From: Anaerococcus tetradius ATCC 35098
GTDB lineage: Bacteria; Bacillota; Clostridia; Tissierellales; Peptoniphilaceae
Length of the DNA stretch: 64,000 nt
Assembly: GCF_000159095.1 (NCBI RefSeq)
Contig: NZ_GG666297.1
Span: 24,355 to 88,354, forward strand
Direction of reading: 5' to 3'
Position numbers and translations under genes: made by a program. Position 1 is the first letter of the stretch. Each line of letters opens with the position of its first letter. This document shows positions 15,664-62,564 of the stretch, piece by piece. The notes under the pieces were generated by a model. That model saw only the letters and a list, made by a program, of their open reading frames with translations. It made no database searches and was not told where the DNA came from.

Positions 15664-17202
15664 CTATTTAATTATTGGCGCCTTGCTTTCTTTTCTTAAT
15701 ACTTCCAAACGACTTATGGCATAAGCCCTCCTATCTTCTGGAGCTTTGGCCATTTTTTTCATCTTTGTTTTAGCAAAGAGGTTTGTGTAAGAACCATCTG
15801 CCCAGAAAATATTTCTCTTTAGATAGGCAGTTACTAGGGCGTAGATAGGATTTAAGAGATTTACGAAGGCGTAAGGGAAAAAGTTTAGAGGACTTACTCC
15901 CAAGGTTCTCATCTGATAGGCACCACATGCTGTCCATGGGAACATTACAGCCCACAAGGTACCTGCATCTTCTAGACTTCTTGATAACATATTTCTTGAT
16001 AGACCCAATTCGTCATACTTATCTTCATACAAGGGAGCTGGAACTCCTATACCTAGGAATTGATCACACATGGTAGCATCACAGAAGATTGATGTTAGCA
16101 TGGTAATAAAGACTAGGCCGCCAACAGAGTGGATTCTTTCTTTTAGGTGAGCGAAGAGCTTTTCTATAATACCTGCTCGCTCCAAGGCTCCTCCAAAGGA
16201 AACAGCAAGAAGAATCAAGTTTATAGTCCACATCTGATTATTCATGCCTCCCTTGGCTAGGGCCTTATCTACAAAGTCGTTGCCAGTTGCTATATCTGGG
16301 CCGTAGTGGAGGATAGAAAATATTTCTGCTAGGCTTCTTTGTTTTTGGAAAATCAAAGAAAATACTATACCGACAAAAACAGAAATCATAACCCCAGCAA
16401 GGCCTTCTATCCTAAGTACACATACTAGGATTATCAAAACCACAGGTAAGAGGACTAGGGGATTTAGGTTAAAGTTACTAGCAAGGGCTGTCTTTATTCC
16501 TTCTGCTATGTTTGTATCATAATTTACAACATTTGCCCTAAGACCTAGGATAGAGTAGAGGATAAGGGAAATTATAAAGACGGGCCCTGTTGTAGAGACC
16601 ATGGCTGTAACGTGATCGAAAAGTCCAGTCTTAGCAACTCCTGCTGCAAGGTTGGTAGTATCTGATAGGGGAGAGAACTTATCTCCAATATAGGCCCCTG
16701 AAATAACCATGCCTGCAGTAATGGCAGGGCTAATGCCTAGACCTTGACCTATGGTCATAAAGGCTATACCGATTGTTGCTGTAGCAGTCCAAGATGACCC
16801 GCAGGAAAGACTAACTAAGGAAGTTATAATACAACCTACAGGTAAAAATAATTTAGGGCTTAGCAATTCCAAACCATAGTAAATTAGGGCTGGGATTGTT
16901 CCAGAAATCATAAAAGATGAAACCAAAAGCCCTACTGTTAAAAGGATTAGGATAGCATCAAGGGTTGTCCTTATTCGATCAATCATCCCATCGAGCATTT
17001 GCCTAAAAGATTTGCCACAGCGAAGTCCAACCAGACAGGCTACAATTATTCCGCATATGAGGGGAAGGTGGGCTGCATCGTAAATAGTTTGATCGCCATC
17101 TTTGGCGAAGACAAAAACATAAATCATCAAAAAAACCATTGTCAAAATGGGTAAGATTGCTTCAAATAAATTGGGTAGTCTTTCTTTCTTGACCTTTTCC
17201 AT
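15664..17202 (-). CDS. Na+/H+ antiporter, NhaC family
   Basis: This 512-residue membrane protein has about 12 hydrophobic segments and conserved blocks of the ion transporter NhaC superfamily: GYIGDKFSPLSDTTNLAAG-like sequence (seen here as GAYIGDKFSPLSDTT), LSCGSSWTATATIGIA, and TMCDQFLGIGVPAPLYED. The family exchanges sodium for protons, or in some members malate/lactate, across the cytoplasmic membrane. An AAGGAG site precedes ATG 17202. It faces the trkAH genes, so potassium uptake and sodium extrusion lie side by side. A palindrome overlaps its promoter. Confidence 0.87.
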   Translation of the reverse strand: MEKVKKERLPNLFEAILPILTMVFLMIYVFVFAKDGDQTIYDAAHLPLICGIIVACLVGLRCGKSFRQMLDGMIDRIRTTLDAILILLTVGLLVSSFMISGTIPALIYYGLELLSPKLFLPVGCIITSLVSLSCGSSWTATATIGIAFMTIGQGLGISPAITAGMVISGAYIGDKFSPLSDTTNLAAGVAKTGLFDHVTAMVSTTGPVFIISLILYSILGLRANVVNYDTNIAEGIKTALASNFNLNPLVLLPVVLIILVCVLRIEGLAGVMISVFVGIVFSLIFQKQRSLAEIFSILHYGPDIATGNDFVDKALAKGGMNNQMWTINLILLAVSFGGALERAGIIEKLFAHLKERIHSVGGLVFITMLTSIFCDATMCDQFLGIGVPAPLYEDKYDELGLSRNMLSRSLEDAGTLWAVMFPWTACGAYQMRTLGVSPLNFFPYAFVNLLNPIYALVTAYLKRNIFWADGSYTNLFAKTKMKKMAKAPEDRRAYAISRLEVLRKESKAPIIK

Positions 17203-17246
17203 AAAAATAACTCCTTTTTATAATATCGTAATAAACTGATAAGTAT

Positions 17247-17275
17247 ATACTACAACTAATTGACAAAGTTGTCAA
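17247..17275 (-). promoter_or_regulatory. nhaC-type gene promoter with a palindromic operator on the -35
   Basis: Leftward TTGACA (17275-17270), a 17-base spacer and TAGTAT (17252-17247). The -35 is one half of the perfect inverted repeat TTGACAAAGTTGTCAA (17260-17275), a likely operator for an unidentified regulator. Confidence 0.55.
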
Positions 17276-17483
17276 CAATTAATTTCGTATATTAGCAAAC
17301 TAGCAAACTAAATTACATATAAAGACTTATGCTTTCTTTTAGTTTGTATTTGTTATAGAATATTAGTAAGGATTTGATAAGTATTTTTTCGAAAGCATTT
17401 TGATAAATAAGTTTAGCCTTGGATATTATTTACATAAAAATTTAAGGGAACATCATAATTTTGACAAAATTTATTGAATATAG

Positions 17484-17511
17484 TTGATTTTAAAAGTATA
17501 AGTGCTATACT
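17484..17511 (+). promoter_or_regulatory. trkAH promoter
   Basis: TTGATT, a 16-base spacer and TATACT (17506-17511), 20 bases before the trkA ATG. The 330-base gap behind it holds no gene and no recognisable c-di-AMP (ydaO) riboswitch, which is often found in front of potassium-transport genes. Confidence 0.6.
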
Positions 17512-17531
17512 AAAGTAATCTAGAAGGAGTT

Positions 17532-18899
17532 ATGAATATTATTATATTGGGGGCTGGTAAGGTTGGATCCTATTTAACAAGTGATCTGGCAGAGGATGGT
17601 CACGATATATTAGTCATAGATCACGATAAGGATGTTTTGGATAAACTTCTTGCTGCAAACGATATTATGTGAATTGTCGGAGATGGGCGTGACCCAGAAG
17701 TTTTAATCGACGCTAATGCAGCTAATTGTGATTTATTTATTGCTATAAGCTTATCTGATGACGTGAATCTAATAGCTTCAACTATGGCGAAGAAGATGGG
17801 AGCTAAGAATATCATCATAAGACTTAGGGATCCATATTATATTAAGCATAGGGAAATCATAGAAGAGATTACTTCTGCAACGATGATAGTAAATCCTGAA
17901 TCTATAGCAGCCAAGGATATACAAAGGGCCCTAAAGTATTCTCATGCCCTCAATGTTGAAGGCTTTTTTAGAGACCAGGCCATAATGATGGAGATAGTTA
18001 TAGGAGAAGGCTCAAGTCTTGCTGGATCTAGGATATCTGACCTTAATGCCTATTCAGCTAACTACCACACCCTAATAGGAATTGTTAATAATAATGGCAA
18101 GATTTCTATCCCCCATGGTTCTTATGTTCTTGAAAAGGGCGAAAAAATTTATGTAATTGGGGAAAAGGAAGGTGTGGATAGGTTCTACAAACAAGAAGCC
18201 CTAGATAGGTATAAGATAAAAAACGTCTTGATAATAGGGGCGGGTGCTATAACAGAGCATCTTACGGAGCTCTTGTTAGATAGGGGCTTTAGTGTAACGG
18301 TTGTAGAAATTGATAAGGAAAAGGCTGAAGGCTTTAGTGAGAGACATTCTGATGCTGTAGTTATTAATGCTGATGGGTCTGACCCAGATATCTTGGAAGA
18401 AGTAAGGGTTGAAAGCTTCGATGCTATGATTTGTTTAACTGGTATGGATGAAGAAAATATCCTAATTTCCTTGTTAGGAAAAAAATATGGTATAGAAAAA
18501 ATTATAGCAAAGGTAAATAGGACCAAGCTTATCAAAATGACAGGAATACTAGATATAGATACTACCTTCACTCCAAAGAGGGCAGCAAGTGATGTGATAA
18601 ATAGGATTATTAGGTCAAAGGAAAACGCCAGAGGTTCATCAATAACTTCTCTTTATAGGCTAGAAGATGATGAAGTCGAGGTAATAGAATTTGCAGCAAT
18701 AGAACATTCAGAAATTTTAAATAAGAAGCTAAAGGATTTAGATATAAGAGAGGATACCCTAATTGCCTGCATCAAACACGAAGAGCTTGATGGAGCTATA
18801 GAAGTGCCAAATGGGGATTCTATGATTTCCCTTGGAGATAGGGTTTTGGTGATTACTACCAACCACTCTTTCCAAACCATAGATGACGTATTGGAGTAG
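17532..18899 (+). pseudogene. trkA: Trk potassium uptake regulator TrkA with in-frame UGA at codon 47
   Basis: ATG 17532 has an AGAAGGAG site and opens the classic NAD-binding start (IIILGAGKVGSYL). The reading frame is that of TrkA throughout, 455 residues in total, but codon 47 (17670-17672) is TGA. The protein carries two RCK halves, each a Rossmann domain (GAGKVG near residue 7; IGAGAITEHL near 230) plus a TrkA-C domain. TrkA binds nucleotides and gates TrkH. TrkA relatives that I recall have Cys at this site (VMC-I-x-GNG). The stop could be a nonsense mutation, a sequence error, or a recoded selenocysteine. The rest of the frame is intact, so any lesion is recent. If UGA stops, only 46 residues are made. 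A GTG at 17763 could not supply the first Rossmann fold. Confidence 0.85.
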
Positions 18900-18901
18900 A
18901 T

Positions 18902-20359
18902 ATGAATGGATCAATAATAAAATATACCATAGGTAAGCTTTTGCAAGTCTTGGCAATGCTAATGACTGTGCCTTTACTTGTAGGGCTTATATATAGGGAG
19001 AATTTTTCAGATATAAGAAACTTTATAATACCAATAGTAATTGCCTTACTTGTGGGGACAATCTTAATCAAGAGAGGTTCTAATAGGGGGCATATTTTCA
19101 CCAAGGAGGCCATGTTTATAACGGCTTCTTGCTGGTTGATATTTTCAATTATAGGAGCAATTCCCCTCTACCTAACAGCTTCCAATTATCCAAGTCCTGT
19201 AGATGCTTTTTTCGAAATGGCAAGTGGTTTTACGACCTGTGGGGCATCGGTTGCAAATAATGTGGAACTTTTACCCCATTCCATCTTGTTTTGGAGGTCT
19301 TTTTCCCACTTTATAGGAGGAATGGGGATTTTGGTCTTTACCCTCGCGATTTTACCAAAGACTAACAAGGAATCATCATCCCTAATGCAGGCAGAAGTGC
19401 CTGGGCCAACCTTTGGCAAGATTACCCCCAAATTATCACAAACAGCAAGAGTTTTGTATCTCATGTACATAGTTTTAACTATTATTACTGTAATATTCTT
19501 GCTTTTAGGAGGTTTAAATCTTTTTGATGCAGTAATTCACGCTATGGGAACAGCAGGAACGGGTGGTTTTTCCAACAAGGCTATGTCAGTAGGCTTTTAT
19601 AATTCAAGATATGTAGAAATAGTCTTATCAATTGCTATGCTCGCTTTTGGTGTTAATTTCAATATCTATTATTTTGCTATAATAAAATCGGCTAGACAGG
19701 CCCTAAAGAGTGAGGAGCTTTGGTGGTATCTTGCCATAGTTGGCCTTTCTGCTATACTAATATTTTTTAATATTAGATCCATGTATGATAGTGCTTTCTA
19801 TACAGGAGTATCATCATTTTTTACAGTATCATCAATTATCACTACGACTGGTTATGTTTCACTCGATTATGGAACTTGGCCCTTGTTTTCAAGACATATC
19901 CTAATCTTTTTGATGTTTGTCGGAGGCTGTGCGGGATCGACTGCAGGCGGAATCAAGGTTTCAAGATTTGTAGTCTTGTATAAATCAGCTATCAACCAAA
20001 TAAGAAAGGCCTTAAACCCCCTTAGGGTAAGTGTAAGCAAGATGGATGGCAAGAGAGTTGATAAGGAAGTAGAAGAGTCAATCAATAGATACATCTTAGT
20101 CTATATCTTCCTCTTTATAATCTTCATGCTTGTAGTAACTCTAGATACTAACAATTTCGAGGCGGCCTTTTCAGCTGTAGCTACAACCTATAACAATGTT
20201 GGTCCAGGTCTTATTGACTTTGGGCCTATAACAAGCTTTGCTGCTATGAGCAAGCTATCAAAATTAACATTAAGCTTTGCCATGCTTTTTGGTAGGCTTG
20301 AGCTTTATCCGATGATTCTCTTATTTGCAAGAGATACCTATAGCAATGTGAGAAAATAA
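18902..20359 (+). CDS. trkH: Trk potassium uptake channel subunit TrkH
   Basis: This 485-residue protein follows trkA by two bases. It shows the four-fold pore pattern of the TrkH/KtrB family, with selectivity loops such as FTTCGAS, GTAGTGGFS, ITTTGYVS and TYNNVGPG, plus the intramembrane GGCAGSTAGGIK segment that gates the pore. It forms a dimeric potassium channel in the membrane whose gate is controlled by TrkA. Length is typical. If trkA is broken, transport is probably unregulated or weak. Confidence 0.95.
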   Translation: MNGSIIKYTIGKLLQVLAMLMTVPLLVGLIYRENFSDIRNFIIPIVIALLVGTILIKRGSNRGHIFTKEAMFITASCWLIFSIIGAIPLYLTASNYPSPVDAFFEMASGFTTCGASVANNVELLPHSILFWRSFSHFIGGMGILVFTLAILPKTNKESSSLMQAEVPGPTFGKITPKLSQTARVLYLMYIVLTIITVIFLLLGGLNLFDAVIHAMGTAGTGGFSNKAMSVGFYNSRYVEIVLSIAMLAFGVNFNIYYFAIIKSARQALKSEELWWYLAIVGLSAILIFFNIRSMYDSAFYTGVSSFFTVSSIITTTGYVSLDYGTWPLFSRHILIFLMFVGGCAGSTAGGIKVSRFVVLYKSAINQIRKALNPLRVSVSKMDGKRVDKEVEESINRYILVYIFLFIIFMLVVTLDTNNFEAAFSAVATTYNNVGPGLIDFGPITSFAAMSKLSKLTLSFAMLFGRLELYPMILLFARDTYSNVRK

Positions 20360-20365
20360 CACTAA

Positions 20366-20402
20366 AAAGACTGTGAGAAAAACTCATGGTCTTTATTGTT
20401 TT
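20366..20402 (+). terminator. trkAH terminator
   Basis: AAAGAC pairs with GTCTTT and TGAG with CTCA around an A-rich loop, followed by a T-rich tail. Confidence 0.65.
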
Positions 20403-20435
20403 CTAAGTCTTATATAGCTGTGGTCAGGGCCTTCT

Positions 20436-20472
20436 TTGCTAATACTTTTTTAAAAAGGGTATAATGCATGTA
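20436..20472 (+). promoter_or_regulatory. Promoter placed for a leaderless HAD transcript
   Basis: TTGCTA (20436-20441), an 18-base spacer and TATAAT (20460-20465). Seven bases further on is the A of the ATG at 20472. No ribosome site is present, so the mRNA probably begins at the start codon. Confidence 0.6.
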
Positions 20473-21299
20473 TGATTAAACTAATAACAATTGATGTGGA
20501 CGGAACCCTAGTTACTCCACTAAAAAAATTAACGAAAATAAATAAAGACGCAATAAAAAAAGCAAAAGATAAAGGAATCCATATAGCTTTAGTTAGTGGC
20601 AGGCCTTTTCACAGTATGATTCACCTAATTAAGGAGCTAAAGCTAACAGAAGAAGGCCATTTTACTATCTGCCAAAATGGCTCCTATATTTTTGATAATG
20701 TTAGCCAGAAGCCGATTTCTGGTACCTATCAATATCCAAGGGACTTGATGGAAGTAGATAAGCTTCTTTCTGGCTACAAATTAGAACTATCTTGTATGGA
20801 TGATGTGGGCTTTTATTCTAAAAGACAAATTCCAAACTTCTATACCATAATTGACGCAAAAATAAATAGGATGCCGATTCAGACGGTTTCCTACAAAGAT
20901 TGGCAAGAGGATAAAAAGTTTGGAAGATTTTTGATTTTGGGAGGGGCAAGTGAGATAAAAAGATTTATCAAAAATATGCCCGAAAAGCTAAAAACTGACT
21001 ATTATTCGGTTCAAACAGCTCCATTTTTGATTGAAGTTATGAATAAAAACACCAACAAGGGTTTTGCTACAAAGCTTATGGCAGACAAGCTCGGTATAGG
21101 GATGGATGAAGTTATGGCAATTGGTAATGAGAAAAACGACATACCTATGCTTGAAAAAGCTGGTTTTGCAGTAGCCATGGAAAATGCTGTTGATGAATTA
21201 AAGACCCATGCTGATTTTATTACAAGGTCCAATAGGAAGTCGGGCGTAGGCTATGCTATCGAAAAACTTTTGGCTAATGATTGTAAGATTTTTGTCTAG
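20472..21299 (+). CDS. HAD-superfamily Cof-type phosphatase
   Basis: The 275-residue protein opens with the HAD nucleophile motif TIDVDGTL (the two Asp residues are nucleophile and acid/base), has VSGRPF (motif II region), a C2-type cap domain, Lys at NKGFATKLM, and the metal-binding AIGNEKNDIPMLE near residue 215. Cof-type enzymes dephosphorylate sugar phosphates, FMN or similar metabolites, and the substrate is not predictable. There is no Shine-Dalgarno site. A TPP riboswitch starts just downstream, but on the available evidence it controls the next genes. Confidence 0.9.
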   Translation: MIKLITIDVDGTLVTPLKKLTKINKDAIKKAKDKGIHIALVSGRPFHSMIHLIKELKLTEEGHFTICQNGSYIFDNVSQKPISGTYQYPRDLMEVDKLLSGYKLELSCMDDVGFYSKRQIPNFYTIIDAKINRMPIQTVSYKDWQEDKKFGRFLILGGASEIKRFIKNMPEKLKTDYYSVQTAPFLIEVMNKNTNKGFATKLMADKLGIGMDEVMAIGNEKNDIPMLEKAGFAVAMENAVDELKTHADFITRSNRKSGVGYAIEKLLANDCKIFV

Positions 21300-59072: not shown

Positions 59073-62000
59073 ATGAAAAATCGATCGCAAAAACTTCTTA
59101 AAAATTATAAGAAACTTATACTCATGCTAGTATTTATCCTAAGTTTCGCATATTTATTCACCTACCAGACCAGCGATGCTGGCGGAGATATAATTAAACA
59201 TATATGGGATTTGTTACCGAAAATAAAAAAAGAATATCATGCCAGTATTCCACTTAGAGATTATAAGGAAAACGCCCAGCTATATAATATCAATATAAAG
59301 GAAGAAAATGGGCAGAAGAAAATTATATGGAAATACGATGTAACATTTGAGGGCTTAACTGATTTTTCTGATGCTAAAGACAAGATAGAACATTTCTTCA
59401 CGACAACCAAGACATCAGGACTAGGGACTCCTCTTATCAAAGAAATAAAAGGGCCTAATGGAATAATAAATATCAACAGTTCTAATTTTACCGATGATAA
59501 GATAAATACTTGTAAAAGCCAATTTGCTAAGCCATCTGACTTTCCAGATGGAACTTATGAATTTACAATTGAAACCCCAATAACTGAATTAAGAGAAAAT
59601 TATACCCTATATGTCAATACTCAGCTAACTGCAAATATGTATAAGGGCGAATATGTTCCCAAAGATGGTGGAGAAGGCTCTTATCAATTTGACAAAGACT
59701 CAGTAATTAAAGCTCCATCTATGCTTAGTCTTACTGTAAAAGCAGAAGATAATTATGGAGATGATGAAAACATTAGCTTGGCAGAACTAAAGGAAGATAT
59801 GCCGAACTTTACTGAGCTTGATTCAAATGGGATTATAACACAAGGTTCATATATAAGTGATTCCAAAATAAGATGGACATCAACTTTTATGAATAAGACT
59901 TTGGATAAGACTGATCTCGAATTGGATATGACAGCTGATTCTAGTCAAAATCCTGGTAGGGTAAAATTATTTTATTATATGCCAGGCGAAAATGGATATG
60001 AAAAGATAAAAGAAGAAGAAATAGATGCTTCTAAAATAACTATCAAAGATATAGAACCATCTACAATAGTAGAAGCTATACTTGAAACAAGTGTCAATAA
60101 TAATGGAAAAACCCAAAATCATAGCCTTGGGACAGATAATAATGCGAGTCTAGAATCATTTTATGGTGGTCTTACAATTAATAAAATATGGCTTAACAAT
60201 GTGGCCCAAGATGCAGAATTTACTATCAATGGCCAAAAGGTATCTATAGGAAAATCATATACGGGAAAAACAATAGATGGACATCCTAGTACGACTAGGG
60301 GACCTTTTGTTAAACAAAAATTTAAGCAAACAAATGATAGAATAAAAAAATATAAAAGACAAGAATATGAAGTATTAGAAATACCGCAAAAAGATTATAA
60401 GCTTTCATACTATTCGGTTGATAGGGAAAATCTTATCTATAACTTTGCTAATGCTAAAAGGCAAGCAGCAAAAAAAGAAGAAGATGATGATAGCGATGAT
60501 GCTCAATGCAAGGTTATAAGATATGGTATTTATGAAATAGATCCTGTTTATATACACTCCTATTGGTATAGCAATGCAAAAAACAGTAACTGGTTTGGAT
60601 ATGGTGGTGGAATTAGTGGTAAATTTAGAATACCTTCTGGAGCCAGCCAAGGAGATTATTTTAGATTAAAAATACCGAAAGAATTAAAAATAGAAAAGGA
60701 AGTGTCTGAAACTAAAGCATGGACTAAGATTTATGACTCACACGGTCTTGATATAGGAGAGCTCTACCTTACTGATGTAGATGAATTAACCTTTAAATTA
60801 AATAGTAATGCTAATAAGAATGTTGACTATACTGGGAATTTTTATATAGGTGTAGGACAAAAAGGGAATAATCTAATAAAGGTTGATGGAAAAAATGTTA
60901 GTCCTGAAGAGGCAGAGAAATATCTTTATGGTGTAATTCCAGTTCAATCAGAATTCTATGACAAGGATAATCCAAATAATAAATTGGTCACTGAAAATTT
61001 GGAATTTAAGTCTGAATATGTTGGTGAAGATTTAAAGTGCTCAACTAAAATAAATCAAAATGCTACTGTTAATTACACTGATGATACTATAAAAAAGCAA
61101 ACAGATCTTCTAAATAAGTATGTTGTAGAAGATGACCATGCGGAACAATCCCTAACCTATGAGATAGTATTTAACGCATCACAAGCTGTTGGTGTAAATT
61201 GGTTTGAAGATTATCTAAATGAAACCATCGAACTTTTTCATGGAAACAACGACTGGGCTATAGAAAAGGATATACAAGTCTACTACGGTAATCCAACTGC
61301 CTCAAATTCTGTTGCTAGGGAAGGTCTTGTTCAGATTTATCCTAACTCAGATAATGCTGAGGATAGTCCAAGTGTAGAAATATCAGGCCATCCCTACGAA
61401 GGCTCCGATGATAAAGCAATAACTTTAAATGGGGGCAGGATAACTGAAAAGTTTAGAATAAGATTCGATTTCAAAAACCTCAAGCGCAAGGCTATACTTG
61501 TTAGGTTAAAAGCAAAAAAGAAAGATTTAAGGGGAAGTGCTAATGTAAGGCCTTATCTTCATAATAATAAGTACTATTATTACAATAGGGTAAAAACAAA
61601 ACAAATTAAAAGAAATATTCAATATGTAAGTAATTATTGTGAAACAAAGGCTGCTGCTACTGGGTCAGAATATGATGAGAGCAAGGGAAGATTTAGAATT
61701 AGAAAGGTTGATAAGAATAAGATACCTATTATAGAATCCAAGGCAGAGTTTTTACTAAGGGGAGGTCCTGATACAGGCAATTATGCAGCTATTAGAAAGA
61801 CGGATGAACATGGGTATATTAGCTTTGAAAGTCTAATTCCAGGCAAAACTTATATTCTTAGTGAAAAGAAATCTCCAAAAGGATACAAGAAAAACTTTAA
61901 AAAGTACGAAATTAAGACTAAGGTCCATAGTCAACAGGCTGGTGCAGAGTTTAAGGTTGATATAACAATAAAAGAGCTACCCAATGGAAAAGAAATTCCA

Positions 62001-62564
62001 GTATCCTACGAAAAACCTGTAGATATAGTAAATGAAAAAATTCCTAAATTTATAGTGAAGAAAATAGACAAAAGTACTAAACTTCCACTAAAGGGAGCAG
62101 CTTTTAGACTTACAAAGATAAAAGATGCTGTAGCTAGTATGAATGATTCAGATAATAGCAACAAACAATCAAGTTATGATGTAAGCATCGGTAGAGGACA
62201 GAATATGTCTGAGTTTGTATTTGATGACCTATCTCCTGGTCAGTACAAGCTTGAGGAAGTCCAAGTGCCAAAAGGCTATAAAAAAATGGCAAGCTTCGTT
62301 ATAGATGTAAGTAACGAAGGTACAAGTATAAGCAAAATAAGGGGCTTCGATCCTAACAATAATAGTGCAGACCAAGATACTAAGAAAACTGCAAATGGTT
62401 TTGAAATTCACGCTTACAACAACAAAATAGAACCGCCAAAGAAAAACATTGTAAGATTTGTTAAAACTAACCAATTTGGTAGACGACTTCGTGATGATTT
62501 ATATAATATCATTAAAGAAAAAATACCAATGGTGAAATCTACACCTATCCTGGAGAAAATTTAG
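59073..62564 (+). CDS. Giant SpaA-type surface protein, N-terminal part, ending at a frameshift
   Basis: ATG 59073 follows AAGGAGG. The first 1,163 residues start with a basic signal region and hydrophobic segment (KKLILMLVFILSFAYLF), then a long adhesin-like region of unknown fold (residues about 50-850). Two SpaA repeats follow: RFRIRKVDKNKIP to YILSEKKSPKGYKK near 870-940, and KFIVKKIDKSTKLPLKGAAF to QYKLEEVQVPKGYKK near 990-1070. The stop at 62562-62564 is not natural: the same protein resumes in the -1 frame after the A6 run at 62518-62523, so the last 15 residues are out of frame. It is similar in style to the surface protein at the left end. Confidence 0.85.
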   Translation: MKNRSQKLLKNYKKLILMLVFILSFAYLFTYQTSDAGGDIIKHIWDLLPKIKKEYHASIPLRDYKENAQLYNINIKEENGQKKIIWKYDVTFEGLTDFSDAKDKIEHFFTTTKTSGLGTPLIKEIKGPNGIININSSNFTDDKINTCKSQFAKPSDFPDGTYEFTIETPITELRENYTLYVNTQLTANMYKGEYVPKDGGEGSYQFDKDSVIKAPSMLSLTVKAEDNYGDDENISLAELKEDMPNFTELDSNGIITQGSYISDSKIRWTSTFMNKTLDKTDLELDMTADSSQNPGRVKLFYYMPGENGYEKIKEEEIDASKITIKDIEPSTIVEAILETSVNNNGKTQNHSLGTDNNASLESFYGGLTINKIWLNNVAQDAEFTINGQKVSIGKSYTGKTIDGHPSTTRGPFVKQKFKQTNDRIKKYKRQEYEVLEIPQKDYKLSYYSVDRENLIYNFANAKRQAAKKEEDDDSDDAQCKVIRYGIYEIDPVYIHSYWYSNAKNSNWFGYGGGISGKFRIPSGASQGDYFRLKIPKELKIEKEVSETKAWTKIYDSHGLDIGELYLTDVDELTFKLNSNANKNVDYTGNFYIGVGQKGNNLIKVDGKNVSPEEAEKYLYGVIPVQSEFYDKDNPNNKLVTENLEFKSEYVGEDLKCSTKINQNATVNYTDDTIKKQTDLLNKYVVEDDHAEQSLTYEIVFNASQAVGVNWFEDYLNETIELFHGNNDWAIEKDIQVYYGNPTASNSVAREGLVQIYPNSDNAEDSPSVEISGHPYEGSDDKAITLNGGRITEKFRIRFDFKNLKRKAILVRLKAKKKDLRGSANVRPYLHNNKYYYYNRVKTKQIKRNIQYVSNYCETKAAATGSEYDESKGRFRIRKVDKNKIPIIESKAEFLLRGGPDTGNYAAIRKTDEHGYISFESLIPGKTYILSEKKSPKGYKKNFKKYEIKTKVHSQQAGAEFKVDITIKELPNGKEIPVSYEKPVDIVNEKIPKFIVKKIDKSTKLPLKGAAFRLTKIKDAVASMNDSDNSNKQSSYDVSIGRGQNMSEFVFDDLSPGQYKLEEVQVPKGYKKMASFVIDVSNEGTSISKIRGFDPNNNSADQDTKKTANGFEIHAYNNKIEPPKKNIVRFVKTNQFGRRLRDDLYNIIKEKIPMVKSTPILEKI

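Follow-up and report, generated by a model that had tools for sequence, protein, structure and literature searches.

trkA and the described systems it resembles

The TrkA chains in the PDB (4g65 and 4j9u) are the closest described counterparts of the gene considered here. A UGA codon within a bacterial gene may also belong to a selenoprotein, in which case a SECIS element is found adjacent to the UGA. In Absconditabacteria and Gracilibacteria, UGA is reportedly translated as glycine (table 25). A third selenium trait has been characterized by an orphan selD gene in a neighbourhood of SelD, SirA-like and CsdB proteins (PMC2432076), and a further paper gives YqeB together with YqeC as the signature of the selenium-cofactor trait (PMC5029168).

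The DNA analysed here, referred to as the window, is a stretch of 64,000 nt from Anaerococcus tetradius ATCC 35098 (GCF_000159095.1, NZ_GG666297.1, positions 24,355-88,354, forward strand). Its own genome is labelled G000, congeneric genomes carry labels of the G001 type and loci carry L labels. The window contains a trkA gene (17532-18899, plus strand) which by homology would encode the regulator of Trk-system K+ uptake. Its start codon, ATG at 17532, is preceded by a Shine-Dalgarno-like AAGGAG (17524-17529, plus strand), and its 47th codon is an in-frame TGA (17670-17672, plus strand). An annotation made earlier from the sequence alone, referred to here as the first-pass annotation, had described the ribosome site, the start codon and the TGA in the same way, and all are borne out. 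Apart from codon 47 the frame is open up to TAG at 18897-18899. When the TGA is read through, 455 codons align without a single gap or second stop to the ortholog in G007, the nearest other genome in the genus-wide TrkA search; trkA therefore has no second lesion, as the first-pass annotation had also claimed. The alignment of PDB chain 4g65 covers residues 1-418 of the read-through protein and that of 4j9u residues 1-419, so that both span the stop point. The region behind the stop is matched by TrkA models of NCBIfam; the best of these (4.9e-95) reaches 319.2 bits, a score under the curated 338 from a query that has no N-terminus.

The trkH gene (18902-20359, plus strand), encoding a K+ transporter subunit, is open and is separated from the trkA stop by a gap of 2 nt (NCBIfam TIGR00933, 3.8e-83, 279.8 bits, below the cut-off of 331.15). 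A full-length trkH relative in G007 is likewise free of stops. From this spacing trkH is possibly translationally coupled to trkA. The trkA stop, if real, may have a polar effect on trkH. The window gene is thus similar to described TrkA in its co-linearity over the full length and in the adjacent trkH, but its reading frame is broken by a premature UGA that is absent from 29 congeneric copies.

Codon 47 in relatives and the age of the lesion

Each of the 31 Anaerococcus genomes searched, among them that of the window, gave a TrkA match; 30 of the matches were retrieved as loci, one of these being the window's own. Codon 47 was counted in 29 congeneric trkA genes, a number that leaves out the TrkA of G022 and second copies in G011, G012 and G013. 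Glycine is encoded in 20 of these genes and alanine in 9, and none of the 29 has Cys, Trp or a stop. The three nearest congeners (90-91% identity) encode glycine by three different codons, the next (85%) also has glycine, and so does L042 (80%), which was read by eye. A one-base change is sufficient to convert a glycine codon of the relatives to TGA. In the wider set, which comprises the best 79 of 465 TrkA relatives and partly the same organisms as the genus set, Gly occupies the position in 32 loci, Cys in 28, Thr in 8, Ser in 6 and Ala in 5, and a stop is found in none of these 79. The nearest named relatives among them are from A. marasmi (90%), an Anaerococcus sp. MAG (90%) and A. vaginimassiliensis (85%). 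The first-pass annotation had given Cys as the residue of many clostridial TrkA proteins at this position. This is correct for distant relatives, as all 28 Cys cases among the best 79 of 465 are at 33-36% identity, but it does not extend to the genus (0/29).

Selection on trkA was compared with that on its neighbours in the window. From 61 ORFs, 48 main ORFs were chosen, 13 mostly antisense overlaps being excluded; 22 of the 48 were compared with G007, and dN/dS was computable for 20 and not for the other two. For trkA, dN is 0.062 and dS 2.99, giving a ratio of 0.021; none of the 20 genes has a lower one, although the ratios are rough because dS is saturated. The dN is 0.057 before the stop and 0.062 after it. 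A survey of lesions set 188,354 bases of the contig that holds the window against 335,000 bases of G007, at a minimum of 60% identity and 80% coverage. The 34 orthologs obtained (10,962 aa, approximately 33 kb of coding sequence) include 33 that are free of stops and frame breaks, the sole exception being trkA; its two stops in the survey are the TGA at codon 47 and one in the upstream extension of the relative's ORF. Gene order in the two genomes agrees only up to about 34,934 of the window, and in the 75 kb of G007 that were compared, positions 34935-64000 give no more than two matches, both weak (26-27% identity), which suggests why only 34 orthologs passed the thresholds. This latter part encodes a protein of a surface-protein type (59073-62564), 1163 aa long, which matches SpaA and Ig-like domains.

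As there is no decay elsewhere in trkA, the lesion is either very recent or an error in the consensus. The best explanation, with a probability of about 0.62, is that the UGA at codon 47 is an ordinary stop that arose by one recent base substitution and that the strain makes no working full-length TrkA. A single substitution in this lineage would have changed codon 47 to UGA, and release factor 2 would terminate there, leaving a 46-residue stub broken off within the first nucleotide-binding half. No working full-length TrkA would then be made from this genome, and the change would be too recent for the remainder of the gene to have decayed. Nonsense alleles that stand alone are a common finding in bacterial isolates. 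The first-pass annotation had favoured mutation or error, a preference that the lack of selenocysteine machinery in the assembly and the Gly/Ala codons of the congeners support.

The TGA may instead be a consensus error of the draft, the living strain having an intact trkA; this is a substantial possibility, though a clearly less probable one. It would produce the same picture, i.e. one lone substitution in a gene that is strongly conserved and otherwise undecayed, and only one strain of the species was compared. The assembly is a draft of 100 contigs (2,145,347 bases, completeness 97.95), and trkA is the only lesion among the 34 orthologs. However, about 33 kb of compared coding sequence contains no other lesion, so the consensus is not rich in errors there. 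A real mutation is placed ahead of an error because nonsense alleles are common in isolates and because the compared stretch has no other lesion. We infer that the base is real, that termination at it is efficient and that a KtrAB-like system compensates for the loss.

Such a system is present in the genome as a KtrA-like gene of 217 aa, which has the domains TrkA_N and TrkA_C, beside a TrkH-family gene (449 aa), both open (G000:C94:18500-23500). A TAG counted in the KtrA-like match of the TrkA search is located upstream of the KtrA-like start. The pair is likely a second K+ uptake system and could make the loss of TrkA tolerable. Given a real mutation, the strain would be naturally trkA-null, its likely route of K+ uptake being the KtrAB-like pair.

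UGA as a stop codon in this genome

UGA is a working stop in this genome. Of the 48 window ORFs, 22 end with TAA, 16 with TAG and 10 with TGA. The prfB gene is present (499.2 bits); its match counts two TAA, which are taken to lie in the upstream part read out of frame. At its frameshift site the first frame runs to GDSL and meets TGA within CTTTGAC, and the +1 frame continues as DPASLEK, which we take to be standard RF2 autoregulation. The TGA-ended ORFs and this frameshift site together support the assignment. All 46 tRNA matches in the genome were read by ARAGORN, and a UCA anticodon is found in none of the 46. A tRNA-Ala with TGC anticodon is missing among them, so the tRNA set is not quite complete.

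It is highly improbable that a suppressor or near-cognate tRNA reads the UGA, in a programmed or leaky manner, so that some full-length TrkA is kept. There is strong constraint downstream of the stop, and a low basal level of read-through is compatible with the findings. A suppressor would, however, be at odds with the absence of a UCA anticodon, with the use of UGA to end 10 of the 48 ORFs and with the UGA frameshift site that prfB keeps; none of the 29 congeners has the TGA either, so a programmed event would not be a conserved one. A suppressor tRNA was therefore rejected, and it is equally improbable that the strain tolerates the UGA by making enough TrkA through selenium-free read-through under the standard code.

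A shortened TrkA might be made by an internal restart at GTG 17763 or at a later ATG (17784). The frame is open from the GTG to the end of the gene (17763-18899, plus strand, 378 aa). Nevertheless, no Shine-Dalgarno-like site was seen by eye upstream of the GTG, and the product would be devoid of the GAGKVG motif and of a large portion of the first half. The similar dN before and after the stop gives no sign of a long-standing shorter form. On weighing these points the restart was rejected as very unlikely, although its odds overlap those of a recent loss of TrkA and the two are not exclusive.

Reassignment of UGA was rejected: the near relatives' codon-47 residue is glycine, as the Absconditabacteria/Gracilibacteria code would place there, but this genome differs in having no UCA anticodon among 46 tRNA matches, in keeping prfB and in using UGA as a stop.

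Selenocysteine machinery, hairpin and selD

The first-pass annotation had offered, as a less favoured alternative, that the UGA is decoded as selenocysteine and that trkA encodes a new selenoprotein. This was tested and rejected, and its probability is now minimal. Strong codon conservation after the stop would be expected under recoding just as it is under a recent loss of TrkA, and some distant TrkA homologs have Cys here, i.e. the 28 mentioned above. A genome search for selA, selB, selC and selD, proposed together with that reading, returned only selD over the cut-off. No selA match is present in the genome at E up to 0.001. The five selB matches are all under the cut-off and end by position 227 of 581, covering the GTPase part only, as general translation GTPases do. 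For tRNA-Sec nothing is over the threshold in this genome; the best match (43.5 bits against 47, C95:2180-2265) is, according to ARAGORN, a tRNA-Ser with anticodon TGA, i.e. an ordinary reader of UCA.

The same searches are effective within the genus. A selA match, together with selB and tRNA-Sec over their cut-offs, was obtained in the same 5 of the 31 genomes (G008, G012, G013, G023 and G024). The three genes are adjacent in all five, and the selenocysteine system is patchy in Anaerococcus. All five of these selenocysteine-encoding congeners have Ala codons at the position in trkA (L022, L021, L027, L025 and L028). The selB search of the draft also gave no match of EF-Tu size, and G000 is not among the 23 of 31 genus genomes in which a non-SelB match reaches E up to 1e-40; the draft seems to lack EF-Tu, perhaps as a repeat lost in it. 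A draft with neither an EF-Tu-sized match nor tRNA-Ala(TGC) means that the absence of a gene is not perfect proof. The absence of the selenocysteine genes is made firm by the nearest relatives (G007, G015, G018 and G030), in which no selA, no selB over the cut-off and no tRNA-Sec over the threshold were found (G018 is 86% complete). With sister species standing in for sister strains, both the missing genes, selD alone being present, and the codons of the congeners argue against recoding. A literature search over titles and abstract openings gave no pointer there to selenocysteine in Anaerococcus or to any selenoprotein of the TrkA type.

The SECIS-like hairpin proposed after the UGA (17676-17711, plus strand) does have the stems GTCG/CGAC and TGGG/CCCA at the places described, but as a structure it is unsupported by folding, alignment or Rfam. 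Two-stem layouts of this kind are uncommon, occurring in 148 of 18,073 in-frame 46-nt segments (0.8%) of the 48 window ORFs including trkA. The 46 nt beginning with the UGA have a folding energy of -8.0 kcal/mol, compared with -8.54 (sd 2.49) in shuffled sequences (z +0.22), and an equal or better fold is reached by 114 of 200 shuffles. In a 71-base context z is +1.18, i.e. the stability is below that of most shuffles. In an alignment of the window with seven chosen relatives (8 sequences), pairing holds in 84.4% of the cells of the outer stem and in 56.3% of those of the inner stem, where two of the four pairs cannot form in 6 of the 8 sequences. The value of the hairpin was reached by 80 of 500 shuffles for covariation, by 63 of 500 for changes on both sides and by 223 of 500 for percentage paired. 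The hairpin scores above its slid versions, which is expected because the structure was drawn from one aligned row. No Rfam family is found at the hairpin at E up to 1, and over 16500-20500 the single Rfam match is a chance-level snoRNA-like one at 17754-17808, which scores 19 bits where the gathering score is 42.

Compared with bacterial selenoproteins that have a UGA-adjacent SECIS, the window trkA is therefore alike in an in-frame UGA followed by a weak hairpin and, in its distant homologs, in Cys at the position. It differs in that SelA, SelB and tRNA-Sec were not found in the genome, that no congener has Cys and that the inner stem is not conserved. Selenocysteine at codon 47 is refuted as far as a draft assembly allows, and the candidate for a new selenoprotein family is closed.

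The presence of the selD gene itself (338.4 bits, cut-off 125) speaks for selenocysteine, but its neighbours account for it in another way. In its region (L006 and L150, G000:C99:408500-419500) it lies beside genes for a TusA-domain protein and a Se/S-carrier-like protein, the former presumably yedF-like, and beside two cysteine-desulfurase-like genes named from their translations. A yqeB gene (344.6 bits, over the cut-off) is about 3 kb from selD, and a search of the genome for tRNA 2-selenouridine synthase gave nothing. The genome is similar to those with the selenium-cofactor trait (PMC2432076; PMC5029168) in having selD beside TusA/SirA-type and cysteine-desulfurase-like genes with yqeB close by, and in that neither selA nor selenouridine synthase was found, YqeB being the signature member searched. 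These genes are separate from trkA. The genes near selD allow it to be explained without any selenoprotein, so that selD in an Anaerococcus is by itself no sign of selenocysteine. By its gene content, the selD locus looks like the selenium-cofactor trait in Anaerococcus.
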